Of a stretch of DNA of 64,000 bases, positions 6,785-34,661 are shown one piece after another. Origin of the DNA: Arthrobacter hankyongi. GTDB taxonomy: Bacteria; Actinomycetota; Actinomycetes; Actinomycetales; Micrococcaceae. The notes beneath the pieces are model-generated. The model was not told the DNA's origin, ran no database searches, and saw only the letters and a program-made list of their open reading frames with translations. The stretch covers positions 620,001-684,000 of the forward strand of contig NZ_JAKLTQ010000001.1 in the NCBI RefSeq assembly GCF_022012395.1, read 5' to 3'. The first letter of the stretch is position 1. Each line of letters starts with the position of its first letter. A program made the position numbers and the translations under genes.

Positions 6785-6834
6785 GGTATTCGGAGCCGAG
6801 GGGTGGAGGTATTGGCCGCGTTTAGGAAATTCGC
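6785..6834 (-). promoter_or_regulatory. Predicted SigK promoter of the molybdoenzyme gene (leaderless)
   Basis: On the minus strand: AATTTCCTAAACGC, GGCCAAT (-35), 17 bp, CCGAATACC (-10). The elements and spacing are the same as in the fasciclin promoter. The -10 ends only 4 nt before the GTG at 6780, so transcription should begin at or next to the start codon. Confidence 0.7.
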
Positions 6835-7078: not shown

Positions 7079-8182
7079 ATGAGCGAAACATCCCCTGCCC
7101 CCTTTGCGCGCGACGTCACGGGCAACTCGATCACCATGTTGGACCTATTCGCCGGGGCGGGCGGACTCACAAATGGCTTTTACTCTGCTGACAAACGGTT
7201 CGTTACCAAGCGGGCAGTGGAGTTCGATGCGGCTGCTGCCGCATCATTCGAGGCGACCTTTGGACGCAAAGTGTATGCAGGTCCTATCCAGGACTGGCTG
7301 CAGGAGGAGAAGACTCCCCAAGTCGATGTTGTCATAGGGGGCCCTCCTTGCCAGGGGTTTTCCCTGCTAGGCAAACGCGATGAGAACGACTTGCGAAATC
7401 AACTCTGGCGTCAATACGCCGAGACTCTACGAAAGGCGCAGCCGAAGTACTTCGTCGTAGAGAACGTGGCCACTTTCGTGAAGTCTCCACAACTCGTCGA
7501 TTTCTACGAGGCCACCCGACCGAATGGACTCCTTGCTGATTACGACTTCGACTGGCAAGTACTGAACGCAGCGGACTACGGAGCCCCACAGGCACGCAAG
7601 CGCGCCATCCTCATCGGTTATCGACGTGACATGGACAAGCCTGAGTTCCCTGTGCCCACTCATGCCCGCAAACATGTGACGGTTCGGCAAGCTTTCGACG
7701 GGATCCCACACCGTGCCGATCGGCGGGAACTAGGGGAAGCCCGTACCGAGACGGCTACACGCATCATGCCCGGGCCCTTCAAGACGACAGAACTCCATCT
7801 GGACCGCGAATATCAGACGATCTCGCTGAAGCGGTTTGCTGCGATTCCTCCTGGGGGAAATCGTATGGATCTACCGGAGGATTTGAAGGCTAATTGCTGG
7901 GTGGGCCATACATCCGGATCGGGAGATGTTATGGGACGTCTGCACTGGGACAAGCCCTCTGTGACTATCCGCACCGAATTCTTCAAACCCGAGAAGGGCC
8001 GCTATCTGCATCCTGAGGCCAACCGCGCAATTACACATCTCGAAGCAGCGCGGTTGCAGGGCTTCTATGACGAGCACCGCTGGGTGGGGTCAAAGACAGC
8101 CATTGCGAAGCAAATCGGAAACGCCGTACCTCGTTGGCTGGGACAGGCGATTGCACGAAGCTTGCTCCCCTACGTCGGCTAG
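7079..8182 (+). CDS. DNA (cytosine-5-)-methyltransferase
   Basis: This 367-residue protein carries the ordered C5-methyltransferase motifs. Motif I is LDLFAGAGGLTNGF (about 21-34, SAM binding). Motif IV is GGPPCQGFS (about 87-95) with the catalytic Cys. ENV (about 128) is motif VI and QARKRAILIG (about 171) is motif VIII. Motif IX-like HLEAARLQGF and motif X QIGNAVPRWLGQAIA come near the C terminus. The target-recognition region (about 195-310) decides the sequence that is modified. ATG 7079 has GGACGG just upstream; the frame stays open to ATG 6881, but that stretch lacks family features. It is the first gene of a coupled defence cluster and presumably protects self DNA. GC content is visibly lower than in the flanking SigK locus. 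Confidence 0.95.
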   Translation: MSETSPAPFARDVTGNSITMLDLFAGAGGLTNGFYSADKRFVTKRAVEFDAAAAASFEATFGRKVYAGPIQDWLQEEKTPQVDVVIGGPPCQGFSLLGKRDENDLRNQLWRQYAETLRKAQPKYFVVENVATFVKSPQLVDFYEATRPNGLLADYDFDWQVLNAADYGAPQARKRAILIGYRRDMDKPEFPVPTHARKHVTVRQAFDGIPHRADRRELGEARTETATRIMPGPFKTTELHLDREYQTISLKRFAAIPPGGNRMDLPEDLKANCWVGHTSGSGDVMGRLHWDKPSVTIRTEFFKPEKGRYLHPEANRAITHLEAARLQGFYDEHRWVGSKTAIAKQIGNAVPRWLGQAIARSLLPYVG

Positions 8183-8205
8183 GAACCGCTGCCAACATGG
8201 CTGAG

Positions 8206-8283
8206 AGCCAAAATGTCAGATCTGTCTGATAAGACTGTTCGAAATAAATGTAGTTAAAAGTACAAACTGTCGGGGGGACAATA
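8206..8283 (+). promoter_or_regulatory. AT-rich spacer with inverted repeat upstream of the ATPase genes
   Basis: The roughly 100-bp gap after the methyltransferase is AT-rich and contains TCAGA-TCTG-TCTGA (8216-8229), an inverted repeat of five-base arms. Promoter-like sequence (AAATAAATG, TAGTTAAAAG) and a strong GGGGGGA ribosome-binding site follow before ATG 8284. A separate promoter for the restriction genes, possibly controlled, is inferred. Confidence 0.4.
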
Positions 8284-11200
8284 ATGCTTGAGGCGTGGGC
8301 TGGAGTCGAAGGCGACATCGCAGAGTTCATTCGGGCTGATGCAAGGTCGGCGCTGGAGGCATACCGCGTGCGGCCCGACCTGGTCCGCGAACACAGCAAC
8401 ATCGAGCAGTCGATCTCACAAAGTGGTTACGGGCGCAAGCAGCTCAACGAACTAATCCAGAATGCAGCAGACGCGATGCGCGGTCAGGGTGGACGCATTG
8501 CAGTTGTACTCACAAGTGACGCGTTGTACTGCGCCAATGAGGGAGCGCCGTTTACTAGCAGCGGTTACCAGACACTGATGCTGTCACACTCTTCCGATAA
8601 GCGCGACGACCAGATCGGACGATTTGGGCTCGGCTTCAAATCAGTGCTACAGGTTTCGGATACGCCGCAGATCTTCAGCCGCTCTGGCTCAGTTTCCTGG
8701 AGCAGGGAACGAAGCCAGCAGCTGCTGGAATCGGTTTTGCCAGGGTTGACTAACTACCCCGTCCTGCGGCTCGCCAAGCCGATTGACGCAGACGCCGAAG
8801 CGGAGAAGGACAGCGAGCTTGCTTCCCTCATGTCATGGGCCACGACAGTGGTTCGACTACCCCTTCGAGGCAACGCCTCGTGGCTACACGACGAACTTGC
8901 ATCATTCCCACATCATTTCCTGCTTTTCTCCCCTGACATTCATGAACTGCGGTTCGAGGACCGTGTAAAGCAAACATCAACTGCATGGACCTCCGAACGA
9001 ACCGGCGAGCGAATCACTCTCTCTAGCGAGGGAGCAACCGAGGAATGGCTACTGCTCGAGCACGTCCACAAGGTTTCAGAGGCCGCAGCCGCAGACGCAG
9101 GCAGCATTTTCGCACGTGGTGAAGTTCCGGTGAGCTGGGCTGTACCGCTGGACATCAAATCTAGGCGTCAACTCGGCACTTTCTGGAACTATTTCCCGAC
9201 CCAGCACAGGACTTCGCTTCGCGGCATTATCAATGCAGCCTTCAAAATGAATGAAGACCGGGTCAGCATGCTAGAGACTCTCTACAACCGGGAGATTCTG
9301 ACTCAGGCCGTTCCGCGGATGGTCGCCGGCGCCATGCCCCTACTGGGCACAAGTATCGATCCAGCGGCCCATTTCGATGTTCTTCCGTCGCGCGATCGGG
9401 AAACCCGTAGCTGGGCGGACGGCGTCATTTACGATCCGATAATGACTGTACTGGCTGTCGTTCCGTTCCTGCCGGACCGGTCGGGAACGCTCCAGACGAT
9501 CACCAGCATGCGTATCCAGCCGGAACTGACCGAAGCAACGGCAATCGAGGCTATGTGGGAAGAGTCCGTCGGAGCGGATCGACCCTGGGTTCACCGGAGC
9601 GTTTTTTCCACCAAGGAGCGCAACGGTCTCCTCAATCGCCTCTTGGTCAAGGCAAACAAAAAGCGGGCCTCCATCACTGAGTGGCTCGAAGAAGTAGTTC
9701 AGGAGGGTAGCCTCCAGTCCTACGAGAACGCGCTGCAGATCGCTGCCGAAATTGATCGTCGTCAGCCTGACCATATAGCCGAGATGCGCCGAAGCCGCAT
9801 TGTGCTGATGGCGGATGGAAGAGTCGAAGCACCAATCGCAGGCCGACTTGATCTGCCGACGGACAGCGACGAAGCCGGTGAAACCCTCGTCGCCTACGAG
9901 CTCCTGCATTACGGTCAATGTGCCTCATATCTCCGTACACTTGGGCTGGAAGTACTCGACGGTATAGGTAAAATCAACAAACTTGCCCGGGCAGTCGCCG
10001 ATGACTATTCGGATCCGGAGAAGGCAGAATCGCTTTGGCGTGTTTCGCGCACTTTCAATGCGACGGACGTCATTGACGCCCTGACAAAACACACAGATCC
10101 AGCGAAGATTCTCATCAGGAGACAGAGCGGGTCATGGCAACCGCTCGGCACCGCCTGGCTCTCTGGTCCCTTACTTAGGCATGACCGCCCAGAGGATGCA
10201 GCACTCGTCGTGGATCCACAGTTCCATGGACGGGACCTAGCCCTCCTGCAACGGCTAGGGGTTCGCAAGACTCTTCCGGAACACACATCAGTCAAGAGTG
10301 ATACTTACGAAGCTTGGAAAAACTCCGAGGCCCGGCGTTTATCCCATGAATCGGAACAGAGCCCCGAACCAGTTCCTGCTACTTCAATCAGATTTAACAT
10401 GGTTCCGCACACTGAGCGGTTACACGAACTCAATAACGCGTCGGTTCAGTCCCGGGCTACTATCACGCGAGAACTGCTGTCGCGTGTCCAATATCGTGCG
10501 CGAGCTGAGTTTTCATCGACCTACAAACAGCCTGTGCCCGTTGAAAGCCCGGATCTCTGGTGGGTGAGACACTTCGGAGTATTCAAGACACCGCTAGGCT
10601 GGATTGAAACCAAGTACTGTACCGGTGCCCCTGAAGGTTTTCCGTCATCCTTCCTGCCCTATCCAGGCCCCGAAGAAGCCGCGGCTCTGACCTTGCCAGA
10701 TTCACCGCAAGATATACAGTGGGAATTTGTCCTTCCTCTCGCCGAGAAAACCCTTCAATTGGATGATATTCATATCCTCTACGGGCTTATGGCTGCGTCC
10801 GGAGTGAAGGCCCCGAAAGAGTTGCTCGTGTCTCTAAGAGCAGGGCAAACCACTCGTTACCGTACCAAAGATGTCAACACCGCGTCAGACGCCGCCAGCC
10901 ACAAGTACCTCTCCGAAAGCGGGCGGCATGCCTCCATATACACTAGGCATGCTGAACTAAATTCTGCGCTGACAGAACGGTGGGGGCTCGAACCATTGTC
11001 TGTGACCCTAAAAACTGAGTTGCGGTCCGTTGAGTCCCAGGATCCGAGCAGCCAGCTCGCAGTGGAGCTCTTTCCATACGTTGATCGGGTCAGCAAAATC
11101 AAGCGGTCAACGCTTTGTGTTCCTTGCACCTCTATTCAGCGAATTCAAAGCAACAACGTTGACGACCAAACGGTTGTTGAAAATTTGAAGAGCGTTCGAG

Positions 11201-11637
11201 ACGAGAACAGTGGATACTTCTATTACGATGTGTCCCTAGCACGGAAAGGAATTCTGCAGGGCCTTCTCAGCGCCTTTGGCGAAACACAGCCGCTAGAGGT
11301 AATTGAAAAAAAGCGAAAGACGCTAGTAGCAGCTGCTCACCAGCCGCCAGCGGTCGAGGAACAGCCGGATCCGGGCGAAGGCTCCGCTGAGGATTCAGGC
11401 GGTGAGAGGGAAATCTATGCGACGGTTCACTTTCATCGTCACGGAAACTTGCGGGACCGCGTCGACGAAATTTTCGTCAAGTTTATCCAGCACGTCCTGG
11501 ACGCGGCCCCTGATTCGTTTGACCTCATTCTCACGGTGAACGCGACTAAGGATGGCGGGTACTCTGACTCAGCCATACGCGTCATCAAGGAGAACGCCCG
11601 TCGTCTGGGCATCAACGATTTGGCCATCGACGAGTGA
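8284..11637 (+). CDS. Sacsin-like GHKL (HSP90/MutL-type) ATPase, large defence protein
   Basis: This is a 1117-residue protein. The N-terminal GHKL ATPase fold has an N-box-like QLNELIQNAADAMRG (about 51-65), CANEGAPFTSSGYQTL in place of the usual DxGxG strand (about 79-94), and the lid glycines in IGRFGLGFKSVLQVSD (about 113-128). Further elements such as FWNYFPTQHRTSLRGIINAAFKMNEDR resemble the sacsin/HSP90-like families. The remaining roughly 750 residues have no motif I recognise; the C terminus (about 1035-1117) is a small alpha/beta region after a Pro/Glu-rich linker. GHKL ATPases of this type act in restriction-modification clusters, using ATP-driven clamp closure to control nucleases. 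ATG 8284 has GGGGGGA upstream. The stop overlaps the next gene by four bases (GTGA). Confidence 0.82.
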   Translation: MLEAWAGVEGDIAEFIRADARSALEAYRVRPDLVREHSNIEQSISQSGYGRKQLNELIQNAADAMRGQGGRIAVVLTSDALYCANEGAPFTSSGYQTLMLSHSSDKRDDQIGRFGLGFKSVLQVSDTPQIFSRSGSVSWSRERSQQLLESVLPGLTNYPVLRLAKPIDADAEAEKDSELASLMSWATTVVRLPLRGNASWLHDELASFPHHFLLFSPDIHELRFEDRVKQTSTAWTSERTGERITLSSEGATEEWLLLEHVHKVSEAAAADAGSIFARGEVPVSWAVPLDIKSRRQLGTFWNYFPTQHRTSLRGIINAAFKMNEDRVSMLETLYNREILTQAVPRMVAGAMPLLGTSIDPAAHFDVLPSRDRETRSWADGVIYDPIMTVLAVVPFLPDRSGTLQTITSMRIQPELTEATAIEAMWEESVGADRPWVHRSVFSTKERNGLLNRLLVKANKKRASITEWLEEVVQEGSLQSYENALQIAAEIDRRQPDHIAEMRRSRIVLMADGRVEAPIAGRLDLPTDSDEAGETLVAYELLHYGQCASYLRTLGLEVLDGIGKINKLARAVADDYSDPEKAESLWRVSRTFNATDVIDALTKHTDPAKILIRRQSGSWQPLGTAWLSGPLLRHDRPEDAALVVDPQFHGRDLALLQRLGVRKTLPEHTSVKSDTYEAWKNSEARRLSHESEQSPEPVPATSIRFNMVPHTERLHELNNASVQSRATITRELLSRVQYRARAEFSSTYKQPVPVESPDLWWVRHFGVFKTPLGWIETKYCTGAPEGFPSSFLPYPGPEEAAALTLPDSPQDIQWEFVLPLAEKTLQLDDIHILYGLMAASGVKAPKELLVSLRAGQTTRYRTKDVNTASDAASHKYLSESGRHASIYTRHAELNSALTERWGLEPLSVTLKTELRSVESQDPSSQLAVELFPYVDRVSKIKRSTLCVPCTSIQRIQSNNVDDQTVVENLKSVRDENSGYFYYDVSLARKGILQGLLSAFGETQPLEVIEKKRKTLVAAAHQPPAVEEQPDPGEGSAEDSGGEREIYATVHFHRHGNLRDRVDEIFVKFIQHVLDAAPDSFDLILTVNATKDGGYSDSAIRVIKENARRLGINDLAIDE

Positions 11638-13184
11638 GCATGACCGACTTCCTTTTTACTCCAACCACGAATAACGTCCATGTCGTCATGCCCGACCCTC
11701 GCGTCGCTGGCATGATTGGCCTAAGCCACGATTTAGAAAGTGCGCTTGCGGATATCGTCGACAACGCAGTGGATGCGGGTGCACACAATGTCCTGATTCG
11801 CCACCTATTCGGTCCTGAAGACGTCCAAGGACTGGCCATCGTCGACGACGGCAGAGGGATGTCCGAATGGCAGTTGCTCAGGGCGATGGAGTACGGGCGG
11901 GACCACCAACATGATGCTGGCGACCTGGGACATTTCGGTGTCGGGCTCAAGGCAGCCTCGCTGAGCCAGGCAAAGCGGCTGGATGTGTTCACTCGACGGC
12001 ACAGGTATATGGCAGTCGGTGCCGGCATGACCAGGGAAAGTGTCCGTCGGGGCAGGCCCGAGATTGCTTCCCATAACCCGGAAGCGGCCGAACGGGCTCT
12101 CACTGTCCACGGAAGCCGGTTTCCGGTCTCTCACGGGACGGTCGTCCAGTGGACTGGCCTGTTCAGTCGCCCGCGGAGAAAGTCTGTACGGGAGATCGAG
12201 ACATGGATCGACGCCAGAATGCGCCGCATTTCCCGTTTCCTGGGCACTACCTTTCACCGGCTAATCGAATCCGGCCGGCTCGTAATACAGCTTGACATGC
12301 TCGACACGTCGCTCGGCGAAGCTGGGTCGTCATTTACGGTCGAGCCGCTCGATCCCTTTGCCCTTCTGAGCTCGGTCTCGAGCCCGACTGCATGGCATTT
12401 CACGACCTCTGTGGGCGATATTCGGGTAGTAGCCGAGGGCAAGATCATCGCTTTCTCAGAACGGACCGACCCGCAATTCGTGCTAACGTCGCAGCGCGAC
12501 GCTGCCAAACACCAAGGCATCTACGTATACCGGAACGACAGGCTGCTGCAGGCTGGCGGGTGGAATGGGTTGGCGGACGACGGCGACACACAGCTTGGCT
12601 TCGCCCGAGTGCGCATGGAACTCAGTGAAGAGCTGGAAGGTCACCTCCGCTTCAACCCTGAGAAGGCCGGCGTCGAATTCTCTGAGGAGCTGCTGCATGC
12701 TTTGCTTGAGGCTCACACGGACGACGGCCAGACCTTCGAGGACTTCCTTCGAGCAGCGCGAGACGAGGATGAAAACTCACGCAAGCGGCAGCGACAGAAG
12801 ATCTTTGTCGTCCGGCCCGTAGCTGGCGTACCAGCCTCAGTACGCCAGGAGATGAAGAAGCATTTCGGCTTTGACGAGGATGCAGAGGACGTTACCCTCC
12901 GTTGGCGAATGCTTGCCGATGACGTGTTCTTTGAAGTCGACCGCCGCAAGCGCGTCCTTGTCCTCAACAAGCGGTACTACGAGGCAATTACGGGCTGCAA
13001 GAACCTAACCGATCGTGAGGCACCGTTGGTCACCACTATGATGCACCTGCTTCTGGAAGACGTCTTCCGCGGACAGAAGCTCGGACCACGTCAAAACGCC
13101 CGGCTCGAAGCCATTCAGGCCGTGCTCGTCGCTGCTGCGCATGCGGAACAGGAAGCGGCAGATAAGACAGCTAGGGCACGATGA
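11634..13184 (+). CDS. MORC/MutL-like GHKL ATPase of a restriction cluster
   Basis: This 516-residue protein has a complete GHKL ATPase core: LESALADIVDNAVDAGA (about 33-49, Mg-binding Glu/Asn helix), LAIVDDGRGMSEW (about 64-76, DxGxG motif), and LGHFGVGLKAASLSQA (about 93-108, ATP-lid GxxGxG). HGTVVQWTGLF and the downstream S5-like alpha/beta region (about 160-330, with a KIIAFSERTDPQFVLTSQRDAAKHQGIYVYRNDRLL segment) fit MORC and paraMORC proteins. The C-terminal third is helical and charged. The start is GTG 11634 (four-base overlap with the previous gene) or ATG 11640. Two different GHKL ATPases side by side is unusual. It overlaps the next gene by four bases. Confidence 0.85.
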   Translation: MSMTDFLFTPTTNNVHVVMPDPRVAGMIGLSHDLESALADIVDNAVDAGAHNVLIRHLFGPEDVQGLAIVDDGRGMSEWQLLRAMEYGRDHQHDAGDLGHFGVGLKAASLSQAKRLDVFTRRHRYMAVGAGMTRESVRRGRPEIASHNPEAAERALTVHGSRFPVSHGTVVQWTGLFSRPRRKSVREIETWIDARMRRISRFLGTTFHRLIESGRLVIQLDMLDTSLGEAGSSFTVEPLDPFALLSSVSSPTAWHFTTSVGDIRVVAEGKIIAFSERTDPQFVLTSQRDAAKHQGIYVYRNDRLLQAGGWNGLADDGDTQLGFARVRMELSEELEGHLRFNPEKAGVEFSEELLHALLEAHTDDGQTFEDFLRAARDEDENSRKRQRQKIFVVRPVAGVPASVRQEMKKHFGFDEDAEDVTLRWRMLADDVFFEVDRRKRVLVLNKRYYEAITGCKNLTDREAPLVTTMMHLLLEDVFRGQKLGPRQNARLEAIQAVLVAAAHAEQEAADKTARAR

Positions 13185-14149
13185 CGGCCATGCACGAAGT
13201 TAATAAACGCTTCACTGAAGAAACTCTTAATCACTTCCTATCACTGCCCACCCCGACATTGCATGTTGTCGGCGACTCGCCGCACTGTGAACTGTTGATA
13301 GATCCGCCGGCCCACCAGATGTCACTCCTGATGCCGGACGATCGATCTAGGCCGACCGCGACGCCGCTGCGTCACATCGACGTCACTTTGGAAGAGTCGA
13401 GCAAACCGACACGGCTAATCATCACTGCTGCGTCCAACGTCGCTCCGGGTGCCACCTACGGCCTGCTCCACACCGTCGCGGTTGGCCTTCAGAATGGACT
13501 GAACGTCGCAGACGCCCTAGAGCATGCCGTCAAAGCATTCAAAGAACTGATCCAATCCCACACCAAACTGTCTGTGGACCAACAGGTCGGCCTGGTTGGA
13601 GAACTCTTAGTTCTCGATCGTCTGGTGTCGACGATTGGACCTGATGACGCAGTCGCGGCTTGGCTCGGGCCCCTCACGGAACAGCACGATTTTGCGTTGG
13701 GAGACATCGATGTCGAGGTAAAGACTACGACGTCAGAAAAGCGAAAACACGTCATCTCGGGAATAGGCCAGCTCGCACCGAACCCTGGCCGCGAGCTATG
13801 GCTGGTGTCTCTTCAACTCACGCGCGCCGGGGGCGCGCCAGGTTGGACGCTGCCCGAGACCGTCGAAAGGGTTATGAGGTCTGTCCACGAGCATGCGCAG
13901 GCGGTAAATCAGAAGCTCGAAGGTCTCGGTTGGTACAGGGGTGACTCAGACCTCTACCCAGATCGGTGGATGTGGCGGTCTGATCCGAAAGCCTATGTCG
14001 TCGACGAAAAATTTCCGGCACTAACGACGGCCAGGCTCTCAGCCGCGGTGCCTCGTCTCGAACTGATTTCTGACTTGCATTATCGGATAGACGTCTCAGG
14101 TCTCATTCCCGGTACACCTCACCCTGCCCTAAACGATTGGAAGGTATAG
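13181..14149 (+). CDS. DUF4420-type PD-(D/E)XK motif protein (putative restriction nuclease)
   Basis: This 322-residue protein has a nuclease-fold core at about residues 125-195. It contains VGLVGELLVLDRLV with the conserved helix Glu, then DFALGDIDVEVKTTTSEK, where the Asp and ExK provide the metal-binding PD-(D/E)XK triad. HVISGIGQLAPNPGRELWLVSLQL completes the sheet. The family, known as DUF4420 or PD-(D/E)XK motif proteins, is repeatedly found with Z1 helicase-like and GHKL proteins in restriction-modification loci. The start ATGA overlaps the MORC-like gene, which indicates coupled translation and probably a complex. It is the best candidate for the DNA-cleaving subunit of this system. 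Confidence 0.82.
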   Translation: MTAMHEVNKRFTEETLNHFLSLPTPTLHVVGDSPHCELLIDPPAHQMSLLMPDDRSRPTATPLRHIDVTLEESSKPTRLIITAASNVAPGATYGLLHTVAVGLQNGLNVADALEHAVKAFKELIQSHTKLSVDQQVGLVGELLVLDRLVSTIGPDDAVAAWLGPLTEQHDFALGDIDVEVKTTTSEKRKHVISGIGQLAPNPGRELWLVSLQLTRAGGAPGWTLPETVERVMRSVHEHAQAVNQKLEGLGWYRGDSDLYPDRWMWRSDPKAYVVDEKFPALTTARLSAAVPRLELISDLHYRIDVSGLIPGTPHPALNDWKV

Positions 14150-14151
14150 CT

Positions 14152-17100
14152 TTGGCACCCGAGACTGTACAGATCCTCCAGCAAGCGCTGGCCTCGTTGA
14201 AGAATAATCCTCCCCGAGCGCTCCTCAAACGAACCAACTCCCTTCTCAATGACGACGACCTCCCACTGTTGGATGAATCTGCGCTGGTTAGCGCCCTGCT
14301 CGTCTCGAACCCAAATGACCCTGTACGCATCGCTTTCCACGAGCTGCTTGCACACTGGGATCACATCGACGAGCTGACGCTCAGGGACGGTACTGCGGCA
14401 GCGACTGCCCAGACTGACGAACGACGACGGGATGTGCTAGCCGCCCTCGGTCTCCAGGAACATGAGGACGTGATCGCACAGCTCTTTCCCGTTTACCATG
14501 TCAAGCCCACACTCATCGAAGCAGGCGAATGGCAACCTTGGGACACGACAGCCCGGGGTCGGTTTTACTGGAACTCCTACGAATCCACACTACGTCGCAA
14601 AGGCTTCGCACCGGAGGCCGTCGAGTCAATTGATTCTGCCACCCGACTGATTGTCGAACGGCTGGCGGATCCAACGCGCAAGGAACCCTATCAGTCCAAA
14701 GGCCTGGTAGTCGGCCACGTTCAAAGTGGTAAAACCGCCAATTTCACTGGACTGATCGCGAAAGCCGTAGACGCCGGCTACAAGTTGATCATCGTCCTGA
14801 CCGGTACAATTGAGATGCTCCGCAGCCAAACCCAGAAGCGCATCGACATGGAACTCGTGGGCCAAGAAAACCTTCTCGGCGGCGTCGCAAAGAAAGTTCG
14901 AGCCCTCGAGCTGCAGGCGCTCAGCGACGTTAACGCAGATACAGCCAAGGAAAATATACGCCGGCTGACGGAGTCCATCGACTATATTTCAACAGCTGAC
15001 GAGGACTGGCTCGCGAATCGATTCGTAAGTTTCGGGGGCTACCCTGAAGACCGAGGCGCCCCTCGAATCGTCCGCCTGACAGGATATAACGACGACTATA
15101 AGGCACTGCGAAAAGGGCTCGAGGCCTTAGACTTCCGAACGGATGGCCTGCCCAAGCCAAGCGAACCATTGTGGCAAGCGGAGAACCTAGCACAGGCTGG
15201 TGTGCGTTTGGCCATTGTCAAGAAGAACACGAGTAGCTTGGAAAAGCTCCGCAATGATTTGCAACTTATTAAAGCGGACCTGAACGAAATACCAGCCCTA
15301 ATCATCGATGATGAGGCCGATCAGGCCTCAATTAACACCACGAATCCAAGGAAAAAGCCAACGAAGGAGAAGCAGGAGAGGACGAAGATCAACGAACACA
15401 TTGCCGGAATCCTTAAAGCCATGCCGCGTTGCCAGTACGTCGCGTATACGGCTACGCCCTTCGCCAATGTTTTCGTTGATCCGAACGACTCCCAAGACAT
15501 TTTCCCTAAGGACTTCATTATTGCCTTGGAGCCCTCGCCTGACTACATGGGCGCCCGAGCCTATCACGATCTCGATCCTATTCCAGATGAACCTGATCGC
15601 CGCACATCTAACAAATTGGCCTACTACCGCCCCGTCGACATGTCCGACGGGGAAGTACCGGATGCTTCGTTGACAGAGGCGTTGGACGCGTTTGTGTTGG
15701 CCGGGGCGTTGAAACTTTATCGCCGCCAAACTCTCGGTGATGAGAGCCTGTTCCGGCACCACACGATGCTTATCCACGAGAGCCACTTGACGGGCGCTCA
15801 TCTACTGACCTTGGAGTCCGTTAAGAGTGCGTGGAAAGGAAATGCCTACCGCTCGCCCGCAGCGATGTCTCGACTACGGAATCTCTGGAATTCAGACTTC
15901 TCACTTACCAGCAAGGCTCGTCAGGAACCAGGTTTTCCTTCCCCCGCCAGTTTCGAAGAGCTAAGCTCGTGTATCGCCGATGCCGTTCAATTAATCGAAG
16001 CGGGGCGATCTCCCGTAGTGCTCGTTAACGGAAGCAAGGAATCGGAGTACCAGCAAGCGGACATCAACTTCGGACGCAGGGCCGTTTGGAAAATTCTCGT
16101 AGGTGGCGCGAAGCTTAGCCGCGGCTTCACGGTCGAGGGTCTAACGGTCTCCCTGTATACACGGGTCGCTACGGCGGCCGACACCCTGATGCAGATGGGA
16201 AGGTGGTTCGGATACCGCAGAGGGTACCGGGACCTCGTGCGACTGTATATCGGAACGAGTATCTCAAAGGGACGGCGCGACGTCGACCTTTACGACGCCT
16301 TCGAATCGATCGCTCGAGACGAGGAGGATTTCCGGCAGGAACTCCGTCAGTACTCGGAACTGAACGAGGACGGCGAACCGGCAGTGAAGCCAATCGACGT
16401 GCCGCCATTGGTAGCCCAGCGTCTCCCTTGGCTCAAACCTACAGCAACCAACAAAATGTACAATTCGTGTATTACCGAGAAGGGAGTCGGCGGAAAACTT
16501 CAGGACTATGCACTCCACCCGGTTCGCAGCGACGGCTCGGTGAATGCTCACCATTTCAAAACAGTGGTTCCGGTCCTGCGGAAGCTTTCCGCTGAACATG
16601 GCGCGTTCAAAACCGATGGCACGGGTGTATTCCGCGCCAGGTATGGAATCGTGCCTGCGAAGGACGTTCTGGCCATGATCACTGCGTTCAAGTTCGCTGA
16701 TGATGATACATATGCGCCGGAAAAGTCATTCGTGCGGTCTCTCATTGAGACTGATAAGCTCGTGGATTTCGTCGTCCTCGCTCCGTTCCTAAAGGATACG
16801 GCTACCAACGCATTGCGAAGTATTGTCGGATTCGACGGGGAATCATCGTTTCGAGTGCAAATTGTCAAGCGCAAGCGGCGTGATGAAGACGGAGTCTGGG
16901 CCCGGCCAGGATTTACAGGCAGTTCACCTCGACAGCGCAGCGTCGTTGAACAGATAGCCGGTATCCCAAACCCCACGACCTTCGATTCGATGGCTAATAC
17001 CCTCCACCAGCAGGGAAATGGCCGGCGCGGAGCGCTGTTCTTTACTTTTGCCGCTGACACCGCCGAGGGATTGCTAGCGCCCGACATGGATGACCCCGTT

Positions 17101-17226
17101 CATCCTCGAGACCTAGCCACAATTTTCTCGATGGCTCTTCCATACAGGGCCGCGCCTGATGGCATCATCCGGCACACTGTTCTGCGGACTGACCAGCCGT
17201 GGACACCATTTGTTGACAAGGCGTAG
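14152..17226 (+). CDS. Z1-domain SF2-helicase-fold ATPase of a restriction system
   Basis: This 1024-residue protein has SF2-type ATPase motifs: Walker A GLVVGHVQSGKTANFTGLI (about 185-203), Walker B LIIDDEADQAS (about 384-394), motif III YTATPFANVFVD (about 433-444), and the Z1 signature LVGGAKLSRGFTVEGLTVSLYTR...DTLMQMGRWFGYRRGYRDLVRLY (about 648-700), which supplies the arginine-finger region. Such proteins work with GHKL ATPases and nucleases in ATP-dependent restriction systems, probably as translocase or DNA-remodelling motor. The TTG at 14152 is chosen because GGAAGG lies seven bases upstream; the earlier TTG at 14137 has no site. The gene starts three bases after the nuclease gene stops. 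Confidence 0.88.
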   Translation: MAPETVQILQQALASLKNNPPRALLKRTNSLLNDDDLPLLDESALVSALLVSNPNDPVRIAFHELLAHWDHIDELTLRDGTAAATAQTDERRRDVLAALGLQEHEDVIAQLFPVYHVKPTLIEAGEWQPWDTTARGRFYWNSYESTLRRKGFAPEAVESIDSATRLIVERLADPTRKEPYQSKGLVVGHVQSGKTANFTGLIAKAVDAGYKLIIVLTGTIEMLRSQTQKRIDMELVGQENLLGGVAKKVRALELQALSDVNADTAKENIRRLTESIDYISTADEDWLANRFVSFGGYPEDRGAPRIVRLTGYNDDYKALRKGLEALDFRTDGLPKPSEPLWQAENLAQAGVRLAIVKKNTSSLEKLRNDLQLIKADLNEIPALIIDDEADQASINTTNPRKKPTKEKQERTKINEHIAGILKAMPRCQYVAYTATPFANVFVDPNDSQDIFPKDFIIALEPSPDYMGARAYHDLDPIPDEPDRRTSNKLAYYRPVDMSDGEVPDASLTEALDAFVLAGALKLYRRQTLGDESLFRHHTMLIHESHLTGAHLLTLESVKSAWKGNAYRSPAAMSRLRNLWNSDFSLTSKARQEPGFPSPASFEELSSCIADAVQLIEAGRSPVVLVNGSKESEYQQADINFGRRAVWKILVGGAKLSRGFTVEGLTVSLYTRVATAADTLMQMGRWFGYRRGYRDLVRLYIGTSISKGRRDVDLYDAFESIARDEEDFRQELRQYSELNEDGEPAVKPIDVPPLVAQRLPWLKPTATNKMYNSCITEKGVGGKLQDYALHPVRSDGSVNAHHFKTVVPVLRKLSAEHGAFKTDGTGVFRARYGIVPAKDVLAMITAFKFADDDTYAPEKSFVRSLIETDKLVDFVVLAPFLKDTATNALRSIVGFDGESSFRVQIVKRKRRDEDGVWARPGFTGSSPRQRSVVEQIAGIPNPTTFDSMANTLHQQGNGRRGALFFTFAADTAEGLLAPDMDDPVHPRDLATIFSMALPYRAAPDGIIRHTVLRTDQPWTPFVDKA

Positions 17227-17496: not shown

Positions 17497-18342
17497 CTAC
17501 GCAATTGACGGCCGCGCCTCGTAAACCGTGGGTGCCAGAGCACAGGACGCATCCAAAACACCGCGAATGGTGTAAAGGCACGGTCGTGGGGTACAAAATT
17601 GGAACACTCTGTAAAGATAAAAACGCTCCGGTTCATCACGCGAAAGTTGGAGTTCATTACGAGTTACTAGGAATGGCCACTCCTTGACGCGCCGCGTCGT
17701 CTTGACCTCGATGAGCCGTTCCTGCCCATCAGTTTCAAAGGACAAAACATCGAAACCTAGGCCATCACCTTGCGTTGCCGATACATGATCGACACGCTCG
17801 GCGAGCCGCTTCTGGCCCAGGTTATGGAGCCTGCGCTGTTCGAATTCAACGACCGCGAGTTCGCCAGCGTGGCCCAGGCCGCGCTTCTCCGCTTCGAGCC
17901 TGACGAAGTCATGTCTGACGACATGGCGGCTGAAGGCGTAGTCATCGACTTCGATGTTTGGTGGAGGAGCCATATCTAGAACCGTGCCCTCAGGTAGTTG
18001 CAAGACAGGTTCGCCGACTACGTTCAACATAAGCTGCTGTAGCGCTGAATCACGGACCCAGTGTTCAACCACAGCCTCCCGGAGAGCTGCCTGGACATTG
18101 GATCGCGGCTTGTAGCCCTCGATGTAGAAGGATTTCAGTCCCTGCAGCACTGCACTGATGTTGCAGTGCTTGAACTCAATGGCGCCTTTGCTGCGCCCGG
18201 TTAGTGCTTGCAGCTGTCGATTCTCTTCAGCTTTGTTGTAGCTCTCGCCAACTAGTTCCCGTCGGAGCATGCCAAAGTAGCTCTCAACTATTGCCGCAAT
18301 CTCGTCATCGGTCCACGCCTGACCTATTTCCCCGCTGTTCAC
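17497..18342 (-). CDS. DUF3883-type protein with PD-(D/E)XK-like C-terminal domain
   Basis: This is a 281-residue protein. The N-terminal part (about 10-85: WTDDEIAAIVESYFGMLRREL...FKHCNISAVLQGL) is a small helical domain often found before DUF3883 or HNH domains. The C-terminal part (about 155-260) has LGHAGELAVVEFEQRRL, then VSATQGDGLGFDVLSFE...ERLIEVKTTR and FLVTRNELQLS, which is the DUF3883 pattern. The Glu helix, GxDxxS-like Asp and EVKT triad suggest a restriction-endonuclease fold. DUF3883 domains occur with sacsin-like ATPases and restriction genes. The gene faces the Z1 gene and sits 94 bp downstream of the unrecognised 665-residue gene on the same strand. The start is GTG 18342. Confidence 0.8.
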   Translation of the reverse strand: MNSGEIGQAWTDDEIAAIVESYFGMLRRELVGESYNKAEENRQLQALTGRSKGAIEFKHCNISAVLQGLKSFYIEGYKPRSNVQAALREAVVEHWVRDSALQQLMLNVVGEPVLQLPEGTVLDMAPPPNIEVDDYAFSRHVVRHDFVRLEAEKRGLGHAGELAVVEFEQRRLHNLGQKRLAERVDHVSATQGDGLGFDVLSFETDGQERLIEVKTTRRVKEWPFLVTRNELQLSRDEPERFYLYRVFQFCTPRPCLYTIRGVLDASCALAPTVYEARPSIA

Positions 18343-18436: not shown

Positions 18437-20434
18437 TCATTTAAGAATAGTGCCAAAAGCAGCCCCTACGGTGGCAGTAAGGCTCCTGCCGGCCTTAGTG
18501 AAAATGGTCATTAGATCTACAGGTTCCTGATCGTCTACGGTCCAAGCAATACCAGCCTCTGTCACTAGAGCGAGCGGTTTACCGTCACGGAACAACACCC
18601 AGAACGCTCCCCCGTCTGTACCGTTCTCCCATTGCTGCGGCAGGTCATGAGCCCATGTGGTCTGCACTAACTTTCGCGGCCTGCGGTCCTCCAAGTTACC
18701 TGTGGCTGCATGTACTGAGGACTGCACATACCAGTGCTGCTTGGAATACACCTTTTGTCCAAGCACTGCACCTATGGCACGGTAGGCCAAGATGCGCCGG
18801 CTGGTCGGTTTGGAGCGGCTAGGCGTCAGCCCTAGCTTGTCCTCAACAACTCGGATAGTCCGCTCGTATTCAGAACCGACAGCATTCTGATAAGTGACAT
18901 GCTGTCCTTCAGGATTTTTCGCAGGGCGAATAGCACCGTTTGACGTCAGCTCGGGGTGCTCAAACACCATTTCGACGATACCGGTCTTGCGGTGCTGCAA
19001 GTTGAAGCTCTTAACTGGCGACAAACCGTCGTCTGACAGGACACGAAACTCGTTATGACGCCTGCATATCTCGGTAGCAAGGTTCCATGCCAGCGCCTCG
19101 TAAGACTTCGTTTTGATTCGCATCCTGCCACTCTCGTTTCTTGTGGGTGCGGGTGATGATTGACCCACCCGTACTGGTGTCTCATGTCCCAGTCGATGCG
19201 CTTCGTGTGAGCCCGAATACCATCGCCCGGTTTGCCGAGACCGCCTGTACTTGCCTAGGAGTCCAACAGGTGGTGCGATAAGCAAAACTTCAGTGTCTTC
19301 CGGGAGGTCAGAGCCTGCGTCTGCCAACTGGCGATACCACCCCTGAAACTTTTCCAGCACCAGCACCCGCTGATTGTCGATATCCCCCTGCGCAAAGAAC
19401 AAAGACTTTTTCCCCAAGCTGGATGAATTACCAAGAAGCTGGTCTGCCAGGTGATGGACCATGTGCAGCCCGCCACAACCAGCGAACATGTCTGACCAAT
19501 GCGACTGCTCGTACAAACGGGTAGCTAACCGGCCAGTAGTCCGGGCATCTATGTAAGGACCTTCACTCCGTCCGTAGGGAAGCCAATCCATTTGCGGGTG
19601 ACAAAAATACGCTAAGGCCCGAGTCCCCCACTGGCGGCGCAGCAGGGAAAGCTCCGGAGTTCCTGTCGGCATACCGGAGACGATCCACCGCGCGATTCCG
19701 AGTGCCGGATCTGACCATCCGAGCGGGCCAAGGGCTAAGTGGGGAAGCGGTGCCCAGTATCCGGCCCTGTCCTCTACCGGGCCGTCAATTTCTGAACACC
19801 ATTGCGGAAGTGCCCAACTGGAGTCCCAACCGTTCAGTGTCTGGAAGAGGAAACCTGTTCCACGCGCCCACCAGGAATAGTCGCCGAGCAGTTCAGTGTC
19901 GTGTGCATTCCACTTATGATCAATTGGCGGGGACATCGTTGGACCCAGATAACGGTTCTGGGTTTCGGCCAGCCTCTCCGTTATTGCTTCGATTGCCTGC
20001 CACGCCCGGCCAATCGTGTCGTTGCGCAGGAACGATCCATGGAGCTCAGGGCTGGAAGTCATTCCCCACTGATACATATTCAGTAGTGCCATACAGATGT
20101 GAGCAGGAGCATGACCCAGCTCTTCGGAATCGATTATGGCAGCACATTCGGCCAATAGCTGCCCCGGCCGTTGCCAGGAACTGCTACGCAGGTCTGTCGG
20201 TAATCTCAGCCCGGCAGCGTCAATCATGGCATTGACAATGTGTCCAGTCCGTACGATGACGCTCTCGACTTCACTACCGTAGAAGCGTTCAGAGCACTCG
20301 GACCACTCACGGCGAGCCTTCCGGATCACCGATAGGTCCTTGTTCGCGGTCAAGGACAGCATCACGGCCGATTGGAGAACTAACAGGTCGTTATCGATTC
20401 CAGACACTGTCGATTCCCACGTCCCAATATGCAT
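18437..20434 (-). CDS. Unrecognised 665-residue protein of the defence island
   Basis: I do not recognise a family. The protein is soluble, with no signal peptide or membrane helix. The N-terminal half is helical and Trp-rich (SWWARGTGFLF, WDSSWALPQW, LGPLGWSDPALGIARWIVSG). A central alpha/beta segment reads FFAQGDIDNQRVLVLEKFQGWYRQL..DTEVLLIAPPVGLLGKYRR. Basic stretches follow (RMRIKTKSYEALAWNLATEICRRHNEF; SRSKPTSRRILAYRAIG). The C terminus has strand-like repeats (GGAFWVLFRDGKPLALVTEAGIAWTV). The basic, Trp-rich composition would suit a nucleic-acid-binding effector, but that is inference. It shares the strand of the DUF3883 gene and has the same lowered GC as the restriction genes. ATG 20434 has a weak AGGG upstream. 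Confidence 0.65.
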   Translation of the reverse strand: MHIGTWESTVSGIDNDLLVLQSAVMLSLTANKDLSVIRKARREWSECSERFYGSEVESVIVRTGHIVNAMIDAAGLRLPTDLRSSSWQRPGQLLAECAAIIDSEELGHAPAHICMALLNMYQWGMTSSPELHGSFLRNDTIGRAWQAIEAITERLAETQNRYLGPTMSPPIDHKWNAHDTELLGDYSWWARGTGFLFQTLNGWDSSWALPQWCSEIDGPVEDRAGYWAPLPHLALGPLGWSDPALGIARWIVSGMPTGTPELSLLRRQWGTRALAYFCHPQMDWLPYGRSEGPYIDARTTGRLATRLYEQSHWSDMFAGCGGLHMVHHLADQLLGNSSSLGKKSLFFAQGDIDNQRVLVLEKFQGWYRQLADAGSDLPEDTEVLLIAPPVGLLGKYRRSRQTGRWYSGSHEAHRLGHETPVRVGQSSPAPTRNESGRMRIKTKSYEALAWNLATEICRRHNEFRVLSDDGLSPVKSFNLQHRKTGIVEMVFEHPELTSNGAIRPAKNPEGQHVTYQNAVGSEYERTIRVVEDKLGLTPSRSKPTSRRILAYRAIGAVLGQKVYSKQHWYVQSSVHAATGNLEDRRPRKLVQTTWAHDLPQQWENGTDGGAFWVLFRDGKPLALVTEAGIAWTVDDQEPVDLMTIFTKAGRSLTATVGAAFGTILK

Positions 20435-20585
20435 AAGTCGACCCTAGCTACGGTTGGAAGCAATGAAGGGGAATTGTTGTTCATGGCGACCCGGCGTGTC
20501 AGGCTCCAACAGCCAATCAGATCTGACGCTTGAAATATTTGAGGCATTAGATTTACATCCAGCACTTGGTCTACCGCGTTCTGCT

Positions 20586-21242
20586 TCACCGCCGTACCCA
20601 CAACCTCGACGGCCGGCCCCTGCCGCCCCCTGTCATCTCCCCCGTTTCCATGATTTCCCCCGAGGCCACCATCAGGCGGCGGAACGTATCCCGCTGCCGT
20701 GCCTCGCCCTTCACGGCATCGTGCAGCATCCGTAGATCCCGCAGAGTGAACGGCTCCTCCAGCAGCAGGCCAGGGTCGGGCTGATCCTCATATTGATCGC
20801 GCATCCATTGCATCGCGCGCTCCACGATCGCCGTGTGGTCGTACGGCAGCCCAGGAACACCGTCGGACACTGAAAGCAGCTTAACGCCGTCGTTCTCCAA
20901 AGCCCGCTCCAACTCCTTCAATGGCACCATGTCCACGTGGGCAACGGACAGCACCCATCCCCGCGGGTCGCGGGCGGGGTCGTCGAAGACGTACAGCTGC
21001 TGCGGAGTGCGGCCGGTGATGCCGGCCTTGTCTCGCAGCGAACGCAACACTGCGTCAGCCAGTCGCTCCCCCTCGTGCAGGAATGTTCCGGGGAGCGCCC
21101 ACTCGAAGCCAGGCGCTTTGTCGTGCGCAACCACCAGGACGCTCAACTGATCGCCCCGGACCGTTAGTACCGCGGTGTCTACTGCTACTGAGGGGCGGGG
21201 ATAGTCAGTCAATGTCTTGCTGGAGTTATCGCAAATCGTCAC
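20586..21242 (-). CDS. NrtR-like Nudix-domain transcriptional regulator
   Basis: About 218 residues in two domains. The N-terminal Nudix-like domain (about 15-145) starts YPRPSVAVDTAVLTVRGDQLSVLVV and has a degenerate Nudix box, ALPGTFLHEGERLADAVLRSLRDKAGI, typical of NrtR, which binds ADP-ribose rather than hydrolysing it. The C-terminal winged helix (about 160-215) reads FTLRDLRMLHDAVKGEARQRDTFRRLMVASGEIMETGEMTGGGRGRPSRLW. NrtR proteins repress NAD-related genes, and ADP-ribose releases them. It is divergent from the ARPP-1/ADP-ribosylglycohydrolase operon, which fits that role. The start is uncertain: GTG 21242 or TTG 21212; neither has a clear ribosome-binding site. Confidence 0.85.
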   Translation of the reverse strand: MTICDNSSKTLTDYPRPSVAVDTAVLTVRGDQLSVLVVAHDKAPGFEWALPGTFLHEGERLADAVLRSLRDKAGITGRTPQQLYVFDDPARDPRGWVLSVAHVDMVPLKELERALENDGVKLLSVSDGVPGLPYDHTAIVERAMQWMRDQYEDQPDPGLLLEEPFTLRDLRMLHDAVKGEARQRDTFRRLMVASGEIMETGEMTGGGRGRPSRLWVRR

Positions 21243-21376
21243 CCCTATAGTTTGAGCGCGGTTGCGCAAATTAACAAACCGACCTATTCTCGAATTAGCG
21301 CAGTCGCGCTTTAAGTCGGATCCGCTTGGCAAAATCCCGTGAAGACGGGCCTGCCGGCGGAAGATTGGGGGACATC
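21243..21376. promoter_or_regulatory. Divergent control region of the NrtR / ARPP-1 genes
   Basis: This AT-richer gap between divergent genes holds GGTTGCGCAAATTAACAAACC as an imperfect outer repeat (GGTT...AACC, about 21260-21280) that could bind NrtR. ACTATAG near 21246 on the minus strand could be a -10 for the regulator gene. GGGGGA at about 21367-21372 is the ribosome-binding site of the ARPP-1 gene. The operator call is inference. Confidence 0.35.
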
Positions 21377-22264
21377 ATGAAGATTGGACAGCTCCACATC
21401 GGCAGCGGCAAGCAGGTCGGCCCGCTTACGCTCTTCCCGGTTTGGGCCGAGCGCCGCGGCGCGGTCGGACTGGCTACCGGCGCGGCCGCGAACCTGGAAG
21501 TCACCGAACTCACCTCGGGCCCGACGGTCAACAAACTCACCGTGACCAACAAGGACACGAAGCCGGTCCTGTTGCTCGAAGGCGAACTGCTGGAGGGCGG
21601 CCACCAACACCGGGTTTGCGCGCGGGACGTGATCCTGCCCGCGGGCGAGACTCGGGATGTAGACACGTACTGCGTGGAGCAGGGCCGTTGGGGCGGTGCC
21701 TCGTCGCACGGCCGTTCCGCCCGGCGAGCCCCGCTGAACGTGCGGGCCGAGCTGAACCGTCCCGGCCGCGGCGCCGGCACCCAAAGTCGAGTGTGGGAAC
21801 GGGTCAGCCGCTTCGAGGGGCTGAACACCCGCTCGAGCACCGGCTCGCTGGTGGACCACCTCGACGCGGGCACCCGCCCGGGGGTTGGCCTCAAGTCACT
21901 GCCGCGGCCGATCGATGGACAGCGCGGCGTCGTCATCGCCTTCGGTGGCCAGGCACTGATGCTCGAACTCTTCGGCCGCCCGGACCTTTTCGCGGCCCAC
22001 TACCGCTCGCTGGTGGAGGCGGCGTGGCTGGACATCCAGCTCAATGCCGGGAGCATGCGACCAGTGCCGACCAAGGCACAGTCCGCCCGGGACCTGGCCG
22101 TGCGTGTCATGGAGCTTGACCTCCCGCAGCTGACGGAGAACTTCGAGGCGAACCTCGGACCCGTCACCGTCAACGGTGTCTGCGCGTCGCCGAAACTGGG
22201 GATGCTTCCCGGCGTCGCCCATCTGGGCGCCTGGGACACCCGGCACCCGATGATGGCCGGCTGA
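21377..22264 (+). CDS. ARPP-1 family protein (ADP-ribosylglycohydrolase/phosphatase-associated)
   Basis: This 295-residue protein matches what I remember of the ARPP-1 domain, named for its association with ADP-ribosylglycohydrolases and rhodanese/phosphatase-superfamily proteins. It starts MKIGQLHIGSGKQVGPLTLFPVW. The signature LTVTNKDTKPVLLLEGELLEGGHQHRV is at about 55-80, followed by ILPAGETRDVDTYCVEQGRW, VIAFGGQALMLELFGRPDLFAAHYRSLVEAAWLD, and a C-terminal beta hairpin. The enzymatic role of the family is not established; it is predicted to belong to NAD/ADP-ribose metabolism. ATG 21377 has GGGGGA upstream. It lies 73 bp before the ADP-ribosylglycohydrolase gene on the same strand. Confidence 0.85.
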   Translation: MKIGQLHIGSGKQVGPLTLFPVWAERRGAVGLATGAAANLEVTELTSGPTVNKLTVTNKDTKPVLLLEGELLEGGHQHRVCARDVILPAGETRDVDTYCVEQGRWGGASSHGRSARRAPLNVRAELNRPGRGAGTQSRVWERVSRFEGLNTRSSTGSLVDHLDAGTRPGVGLKSLPRPIDGQRGVVIAFGGQALMLELFGRPDLFAAHYRSLVEAAWLDIQLNAGSMRPVPTKAQSARDLAVRVMELDLPQLTENFEANLGPVTVNGVCASPKLGMLPGVAHLGAWDTRHPMMAG

Positions 22265-22337
22265 CGGTTCCGGGCCGCCGGCCCGCCCCTCCACAAGCTC
22301 CACCCCACTTCACCGCATCTTGACCTTTGGAGGACCC

Positions 22338-34220: not shown

Positions 34221-34661
34221 ATGCTCAGCCTGAATGAAATCGACATGGACATGCTGACCACCGCCATGGAAAACCACGGCTATGACTTCCGCTGGTGGCT
34301 CGACCCGCAAACCGGTCAGCTGGACATGGCCGGCGACAGCGTCGATGACGCGCTGTCCGAGGAGGAGCTCGAGGAGCGCGGGGCGATCTTCGTGGAGCCT
34401 GTCGAATCGCACGAGGGCTGCGCGGACATGGAAGACTTCATCGACGGCCTCGAGGACCAGCGGGCCCGGGAAGCCCTGCTGGCTGCCATCAACCGCAGCC
34501 GTCCGTTCCGCCACTTCAAGGACACGCTGTACGACTTCCCCGAGCTGCAGGACCAGTGGTATGCCTTCCACGAGGCGCGGATGCGCCGGCGCGCCATCGA
34601 GTGGCTCGTCTATGTCGGCGTTGTCGATGAGCAGGAGGCGCAGCGCGCGCTGGAAGAGTAG
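34221..34661 (+). CDS. UPF0158 family protein
   Basis: This 146-residue acidic protein contains the family pattern: DMDMLTTAMENHGYDFRWWLDPQTGQLDM near the start, FVEPVESHEGCADMEDFIDGLEDQRARE in the middle, and LLAAINRSRPFRHFKDTLYDFPELQDQWYAFHEARMRRRAIEWL at the end. Function is not established. ATG 34221 is about 70 bp from the divergent pRiA4b ORF-3-like gene, and such head-to-head genes may share control. Confidence 0.88.
   Translation: MLSLNEIDMDMLTTAMENHGYDFRWWLDPQTGQLDMAGDSVDDALSEEELEERGAIFVEPVESHEGCADMEDFIDGLEDQRAREALLAAINRSRPFRHFKDTLYDFPELQDQWYAFHEARMRRRAIEWLVYVGVVDEQEAQRALEE

Follow-up and report, generated by a model that had tools for sequence, protein, structure and literature searches.

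A mosaic sacsin-like gene in a putative restriction-type operon of Arthrobacter hankyongi

A five-gene operon in a variable region

We examined a 64,000-nucleotide stretch of the Arthrobacter hankyongi genome (NCBI RefSeq assembly GCF_022012395.1, contig NZ_JAKLTQ010000001.1, positions 620,001 to 684,000 of the forward strand; hereafter the window), which carries an operon of five genes. These encode a C5-cytosine DNA methyltransferase (MTase), a sacsin-like GHKL ATPase (SACS), a MORC-type GHKL ATPase, a DUF4420 protein of the PD-(D/E)XK nuclease type and a Z1 ATPase of the superfamily 2 (SF2) type (Table 1). Alignments and trees showed this operon to be a mosaic whose join lies inside the SACS gene: the helicase carried by related proteins is absent from the window protein, and a tail of the type found in HmaC is present.

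The gene calls of the initial annotation, made from the letters of the window, were borne out. The MTase is complete, and its PPCQ, ENV and QxRxR motifs can be read directly in the protein; the in-frame start at 7079 is favoured over the first position of the open frame because matches to homologues begin at about that point. The whole SACS open reading frame (ORF; 8284–11637) encodes 1117 residues. MORC overlaps SACS by 4 bases and DUF4420 overlaps MORC by 4 bases. Z1 may start at TTG 14137 or TTG 14152, and the 2-base gap described earlier arises with the second of these, which lies 2 bases past the DUF4420 stop. The Pfam search that had been suggested gave a clear family match for each of the five proteins, all of them full-length, and PADLOC defence models match each of the five genes. 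The MORC protein is also matched by human MORC2 (5.4e-5), and the N-terminal part of the TmtA model matches SACS (6.6e-47).

The catalytic motifs were likewise found intact. The motif residues of the window protein are kept all together in 89/89 aligned Z1 proteins, in 34/34 aligned SACS proteins (ATP site) and in 81/85 aligned MORC proteins. For DUF4420, E141, E179 and K181 are each kept in 42/42 sequences and D177 in 29/42. The MTase motif residues are kept together in only 37 of the 91 aligned MTases, a low count because the alignment mixes several C5 MTase families. When the related loci L136 and L117 were compared, all five genes gave nonsynonymous differences (pN) of 0.034–0.049 against synonymous differences (pS) of 0.23–0.44, indicating purifying selection.

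Five genomes of the same genus match the left flank of the operon, with the match ending at 6818 (G400, G403 and G397), 6798 (G399) or 6738 (G404); flank matches resume near 34221 in G400 and G397. Because flank synteny ends just before the MTase gene and resumes later, the operon lies in a variable region.

Table 1. Features of the operon and its convergent neighbour, in window coordinates
Feature	Position	Strand	Evidence
C5-cytosine DNA methyltransferase (MTase)	7079..8182	+	DNA_methylase (PF00145) 2.8e-53; frame open from 6881
SACS body, sacsin-like GHKL ATPase, residues 1 to ~1029	8284..11370	+	SACS (PF25794) 5.1e-8
Mosaic junction within SACS gene	11324..11400	+	nucleotide match to L120 stops; protein identity drops
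SACS C-terminal tail	11389..11634	+	homologous to C-terminal domain of HmaC (DUF499) ATPases
MORC-type GHKL ATPase, prokaryotic, MzaB-like	11634..13184	+	HATPase_c_3 (PF13589) 1.7e-22; MzaB 4.6e-24
DUF4420, PD-(D/E)XK-type nuclease, MzaD-like	13181..14149	+	PF14390 4.6e-37; MzaD 5e-15; E-D-ExK residues
Z1 SF2-type motor ATPase, MzaC-like	14152..17226	+	PF10593 8.9e-50; MzaC 5.1e-64; frame open from TTG 14137
NOV_C (DUF3883) protein, convergent neighbour	17497..18342	-	PF13020 1.6e-19; PDC-S36 1.6e-98

Conservation of the gene order

A check for conserved gene order, also suggested in the initial annotation, found SACS-MORC-DUF4420-Z1 in six loci including the window, so that the refuting case named there, a lack of joint conservation in other genomes, does not apply. 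A SACS match (E 1e-40) was obtained in 21 of the 395 family genomes, and the proteins fall into two length classes: five proteins of 1112–1156 residues (the window, L032, L117, L118 and L119) and 16 of 1554–1615 residues. Pfam shows an SF2 helicase in the long SACS of L120, and likewise in L026 from outside the family; a TGAGKT or TGSGKT motif is present at residue 1175–1237 in 15 of the 16 long proteins (L134 being without it). We refer to the two classes as fused and unfused. Arthrobacter sp. 68b, the strain on which phage ArV2 was propagated (PMC4205034), supplies the sixth unfused SACS: its mobilizable plasmid p2MP (NZ_KJ410765.1) has all five genes in an identical order. The motif is absent from the unfused proteins (0/6). 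All six directly precede MORC-DUF4420-Z1, and the MTase is directly upstream in 4/6. The SACS search of the family, and the Z1 and SACS searches of the phylum given below, scored mostly two candidates per genome, and extra copies may be missed.

The front end is shared with a DISARM-like operon

A relative of the front end, by which we mean the MTase and the SACS body, is found in G404, a genome of the same genus. Its DISARM-like operon (L120/L155) encodes an MTase, a SACS-SF2 helicase fusion, a UvrD-like protein, DrmA (8e-238) and DrmB (8e-78); the fused helicase domains are ResIII (2e-22) and Helicase_C (4.4e-17). In G404, this operon is on contig C1 and a copy of the window flank is on C13. 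The two MTases are 82.6% identical, and residues 1–1029 of the window SACS are 83.6% identical to residues 5–1033 of the fusion. At the DNA level the window and L120 match in a single alignment from 7127 to 11324 (76% over 4218 columns), which then ends. The protein comparison breaks at the same place, identity being 66% at residues 951–1000, then 32%, then 10–29%. The other unfused SACS proteins are just 44–48% identical to the window SACS, yet they align to its end, tail included.

Identity to the G404 protein also differs along the SACS body, with 93% over residues 1–600 and 72% over residues 600–1000. More than one exchange is therefore possible. Synonymous change between the window and L120 is also uneven around the step near residue 600.

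The trees gave the same picture. For SACS, the window protein pairs with that of G404 (100/100). The remaining five unfused proteins make up a separate clade (100/100), nested like the first pair inside the fused family, and a constraint uniting all six unfused sequences was rejected by the approximately unbiased (AU) test (p 1e-33). The window MTase also joins G404 (100/100), and the AU test rejects its grouping with L032, L117 and L136 (p 1e-76). For the back end, MORC-DUF4420-Z1, the AU test does not reject the window and the five other unfused loci as one clade (p 0.203 for Z1, 0.143 for DUF4420, 0.321 for MORC and 0.368 for the three joined). The window is thus separated from the other unfused loci by the history of its front end; the back end leaves its place open.

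Two further arrangements of these parts were seen. Three DISARM-like operons (L121, L122 and L123) have similar SACS-helicase and DrmA genes, and the MTase of L121 is unrelated to those of L122 and L123, which amounts to a natural MTase swap. In G598 (L125, 395–18999), Z1, DUF4420 and MORC on one strand face an MTase-SACS/helicase operon on the other, in a head-to-head arrangement.

The SACS tail is related to the C-terminal domain of HmaC

The unfused SACS proteins end in ~76 residues to which nothing corresponds in the fused SACS examined; the fused proteins carry the helicase there. A profile built from the six tails was run against the picked genes and matched, besides SACS, HmaC alone, in L033, L034, L035 and L037 (E 5e-13 to 5e-9). 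The same profile was run against 6166 ORFs, taken from the 80 Z1 loci (the best 80 of 562 relatives in a contig scan with the Z1 pair), L113 and L032. It found HmaC in 5/5 HmaC loci, L036 included, and nothing at E 0.05 beyond these five and the SACS of L032. HmaC is a different kind of protein: in L033 it is a HEPN-DUF499 ATPase (Swt1 HEPN 5.6e-25, DUF499 1.7e-22, PADLOC HmaC 2.2e-230), with domains unlike those of SACS. In L033–L037 the gene immediately preceding MORC-DUF4420-Z1 is that for HmaC.

The reverse comparison, with a profile of 19 HmaC tails, gave 30.6 bits (1.5e-8) for the window SACS and 16.9–28.7 bits for the other five unfused proteins, and matched 0/6 fused SACS. Among 1000 shuffled versions of the window tail, the highest score was 9.1 bits. 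Compared with the remaining five SACS tails, the window tail itself scores weakly (14.8 bits, the best of 2000 shuffles being 8.3).

In a tree of the tails (79 columns), those that precede MORC-DUF4420-Z1 (the window, five SACS and four HmaC) cluster together (96/93) to the exclusion of 15 other HmaC tails; the HmaC of L036 is absent from this tree, as from the picked-gene search and the 19-tail profile. Because of this grouping, the tail appears to go with the back end and not with the protein that bears it, a pattern that is suggestive but not firm. Within the group, the AU test allows the window tail to join the five other SACS tails (p 0.378) and equally the HmaC-type tails (p 0.38).

According to PMC12839542, DUF499 ATPases end in a C-terminal RRM/ferredoxin-like domain, for which a non-enzymatic role in molecular interactions, recognising invading nucleic acids, is suggested. 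By homology and position, the SACS tail probably corresponds to this domain. The relationship of the front half to a DISARM-like operon and that of the tail to HmaC, as seen in these alignments, both lie beyond the view of the initial annotation.

The operon is a rare variant

Across the genomes and loci sampled here, the SACS-MORC-DUF4420-Z1 operon is a rare variant. The 80 Z1 loci, which are no census, include MORC in 78, a C5 MTase in 58, a Vsr-type gene in 55, DUF4420 in 42, AIPR in 9, SACS in 9, and HmaB and HmaC in 5; the families were called with profiles from window proteins or locus clusters, so that distant versions may be missed. Among 396 genomes of the phylum, a Z1 match was obtained in 10 and a SACS match in 25. 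The two lie side by side in the window alone among the listed phylum places, and G278 has both ~23 kb apart. For the tail, a search of 346 phylum genomes gave 22 places, the window among them, in 20 genomes.

Mobile elements gave few matches. A viral scan with the Z1 pair returned one locus (L113), and phage records gave six partial Z1 matches. Among plasmids, Z1 (E 1e-40) was matched in seven records, one of them covering >80% of its length, and SACS (E 1e-20) in two. Solved structures gave no match to Z1 and one chance-level match to DUF4420.

Other features of the Z1 loci were noted. SACS lies within ~10 kb of Z1 in L047, L049, L057, L065, L081, L088, L104 and L045, all cut by the locus end; these are seven Streptomycetaceae loci and one Rhodococcus locus, pointing to repeated co-location of SACS with Z1 systems. 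No DUF4420 was found in 38 of the 80 (among L038–L112), where the frequent Vsr-type genes might supply the nuclease. L090 and L094 have two Z1 genes close together, the second being weaker against the window Z1 profile.

Comparison with known systems

The combination of MORC-DUF4420-Z1 with a C5 MTase has already been described, and is a distant relative of mzaBCD; SACS is the new part. The initial annotation cited Iyer, Abhiman and Aravind (2008; PMC2292703) for loci combining MORC or paraMORC with SF2 helicases. That paper in fact describes a third type of MORC operon, consisting of MORC, an SF2 (Z1-type) helicase with a C-terminal DThhQXuRhFG domain and a gene for an E-D-ExK nuclease; its neighbourhoods frequently include DNA methylases (mostly cytosine) and Vsr. 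The window Z1 has the corresponding motif, DTLMQMGRWFG, invariant in comparison with L032, and residues E141, D177, E179 and K181 of the separate DUF4420 gene provide the E-D-ExK signature. The MORC S5 motif GhXhhpXXRhl, compared by eye, reads GIYVYRNDRLL in the window and GFYLYRRNRLI in L032. The difference is SACS, as a sacsin-type gene is unmentioned in the text of PMC2292703 on these operons.

Miller, Stern and Burstein (2022; PMC9523054) describe a candidate defence system with a core of Z1, a PD-(D/E)XK protein (printed DUF4220) and a cytosine methyltransferase. Their type II has AIPR and resembles mzaABCDE at ~20% identity; type I has three further genes. The window has the core of Z1, DUF4420 and C5 MTase, and differs again by SACS, the word 'sacsin' being absent from the main text of PMC9523054.

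Homologues of MzaB, MzaC and MzaD are recognised in the window by PADLOC and NCBIfam models. The mzaABCDE set is reportedly a defence system, from the work of Gao in 2020. Scores against the NCBIfam models were far below the equivalog cut-offs (MzaB 99.9, MzaC 273.8 and MzaD 72 bits against 850, 1500 and 420), and neither the five operon genes nor the two genes downstream, to which the search was confined, gave a match to AIPR/MzaE. Given the descriptions of Iyer 2008 and Miller 2022 and these Mza matches, the back end and MTase belong to a known kind of system, one that is largely uncharacterised experimentally.

Other systems resemble the operon in part. It shares the MTase and SACS body with the DISARM-like operon of G404, and differs from DISARM by having no SF2 fusion, UvrD-like gene, DrmA or DrmB, the last two being present in G404. 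In Tmt, the TmtA layout (read from model match positions) has a SACS N-terminus and a NOV_C C-terminus in one protein; TmtA models match just the first ~520 residues of the window SACS, and NOV_C is a separate gene downstream. With Hma (BREX-related type 1, HmaABC) the operon shares the HmaC C-terminal domain as its SACS tail, and HmaB-HmaC precede MORC-DUF4420-Z1 in L033–L037. In contrast to Hma, the window operon is without a match to Hma models, a DUF499 ATPase, a DUF1156 adenine methyltransferase or an SNF2 helicase. CglI and NgoAVII have a Z1-domain ATP-driven subunit, a separate nuclease and a C5 MTase; in the account of PMC4267653 they are three-gene systems with no GHKL protein and a phospholipase D-type (PLD) nuclease with a B3 domain, whereas the window nuclease would be DUF4420.

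No published description of this composition or of the shared tail was recognised in the literature on Z1, DUF4420, AIPR, MORC, sacsin, DISARM, DrmA and DUF499, most subscription papers falling outside that coverage. The initial annotation had called the exact composition uncharacterised; the five-gene order itself is already public in the plasmid record, which lay beyond its view.

A defence operon built from exchangeable parts

We consider the locus to be, with a probability of about 0.7, a DNA-defence operon of the restriction type, built from exchangeable parts in which a known back end is joined to a DISARM-like front end. The ATP-dependent restriction proposed in the initial annotation is borne out in part, as the best reading: homology and gene order point to ATP-dependent, methylation-gated DNA targeting by GHKL ATPases, a motor and a nuclease.

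In such a system the C5 MTase would mark self DNA, and SACS could be an ATP-driven, Hsp90-like switch that senses, or loads on, unmarked DNA. The SACS tail would then hand SACS over to, or couple it with, the MORC-Z1-DUF4420 back end, in which MORC may clamp or loop DNA under ATP control and DUF4420 would be the nuclease that cuts unmarked DNA. As the fused relatives carry an SF2 helicase in cis, SACS seems to need a motor, and its counterpart here would probably be Z1, as a DNA motor in trans. The motor role is suggested by CglI, in which the Z1-domain protein hydrolyses ATP fast (each monomer in the complex turning over ~176 ATP per second), is required for cleavage and, in the authors' model, dimerises via Z1 (PMC4267653). 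DNA looping driven by MORC has been proposed (PMC2292703). In DISARM, a trigger loop keeps DrmAB in an autoinhibited state until DNA with a 5′ overhang dislodges it (PMC9142583).

We also put forward, more tentatively and at rather less than even odds, that the HmaC-type tail serves as a coupling domain that can be moved between proteins. It would plug unrelated sensor ATPases (sacsin-type GHKL proteins and HEPN-DUF499 AAA+ proteins) into one MORC-Z1-DUF4420 motor-nuclease, with defence systems being rebuilt by recombination at the border between body and tail. The window would then be a case caught in the act, the tail having replaced a fused helicase.

Several observations weigh against these proposals. 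SACS is directly upstream of the Z1-operon genes, on the same strand, in 0/80 Z1 loci. Among the unfused loci, the MTase of L119 is downstream on the opposite strand, and the 19 kb fetched around L118 contain no match to the MTase. The back-end trees give no firm place to the window MORC, DUF4420 or Z1. In L121 and L122, SACS-helicases that are 72–100% identical per 50-residue block accompany MTases with only 18–42% identity per block. Because these MTases are unrelated, the MTase and SACS do not form an invariable pair, and it is improbable that SACS reads the MTase's sequence. The idea that SACS is the sequence-reading partner of the MTase, which had been considered since both moved together in the window, is weakened accordingly by the same pair of operons.

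The tail raises points of its own. Of the 21 places in the phylum other than the window, 18 were fetched (not G131, G181 and G309), and in 15 of these 18 stretches the tail forms the end of a full-length HmaC-like protein, with no match to MORC, DUF4420 or Z1 at E 1e-6, although several end at contig ends, which makes the absence weak. We had supposed the tail to be exclusive to MORC-Z1 neighbourhoods, and rejected this on the strength of those 15. The remaining three stretches (L140, L144 and L151) are fragmentary or different. HmaA is upstream in L137 (5.3e-107), and the upstream gene in L141 has no HmaA match. On the reading of PMC12839542, the tail may be a nucleic-acid sensor instead of a coupling domain. 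Predicted models are weak: the predicted local distance difference test (pLDDT) score is 47.7 for SACS and 75 for the tail, which had three PDB matches, all with E >7.

The locus might instead be an ordinary, divergent MZA or Miller-type system in which SACS is carried along, or acts as a regulator, without contributing to restriction. The matches of the MzaB, MzaC and MzaD models to three window genes fit this, and most Z1 loci, as the count of 0/80 illustrates, manage without SACS. We regard it as improbable, because all six unfused SACS genes stand directly before MORC-DUF4420-Z1, their ATP-site residues are kept throughout the alignment, purifying selection is evident and the tail tracks the back end. 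Less probable again is an abortive or DNA-repair system, in which the GHKL proteins and Z1 would process replication or mismatch intermediates in the manner of MutL. Repair uses were raised in PMC2292703, MORC and MutL are kin, and Vsr-type genes are frequent in the Z1 loci (55/80). Against repair stand the patchy presence of the operon in a variable region, the identical gene order on a plasmid, the PADLOC defence-model matches for each of the five genes, and the DISARM-like relative of the front end.

Within the reading of a defence operon with exchangeable parts, the number of fusion events is a separate question, on which we are evenly divided. One fusion of SACS to the tail may have been ancestral to all the unfused-SACS operons, the window MTase and SACS body being overwritten later from a DISARM-like operon; alternatively, there were two independent fusions. 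A single event is consistent with the AU tests, which do not reject the window with the five others for every back-end gene and for the tail. It sits less easily with the window Z1, whose BLAST identity is higher to HmaC-type loci (44–46%) than to the other SACS loci (~41%), and with the tail tree, which allows grouping with HmaC-type tails just as well. We first favoured an independent origin of the window fusion because of the Z1 identity, and dropped the claim as the AU tests do not decide.

Neighbouring genes and a second Z1 locus

The convergent NOV_C gene downstream may be an accessory of the operon, and the link is weak. NOV_C (DUF3883) is called a novel restriction endonuclease domain in PMC3710099. 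The window protein matches the C-terminal part of the TmtA models; a member of its cluster adjoins the MTase in L055, and the cluster occurs in 2/83 loci.

Further downstream, window positions 18437–23813 encode TY-Chap2, an NrtR-type NUDIX protein, ARPP-1 and an ADP-ribosylglycohydrolase/phosphatase fusion, possibly another conflict-related or ADP-ribose-related set. The same genome has a second Z1 locus (L005, 2715–10025; contig C65 182714–190024), with a C5 MTase, a 631-residue protein that appears DUF262/ParB-like by eye, Z1 and DUF4420. No match to MORC or SACS was found in the L005 stretch.

Implications

The shared and exchanged parts link three families that have been treated apart, namely the DISARM-like, the Hma/BREX-related and the MZA/MORC-Z1 systems. 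The window and G404 operons constitute a natural swap experiment, in which a nearly identical methyltransferase and SACS body are paired with different motor-nuclease sets in the two. Should the tail indeed be a coupling domain, defence operons would become readable, and testable, as combinations of front ends and back ends.

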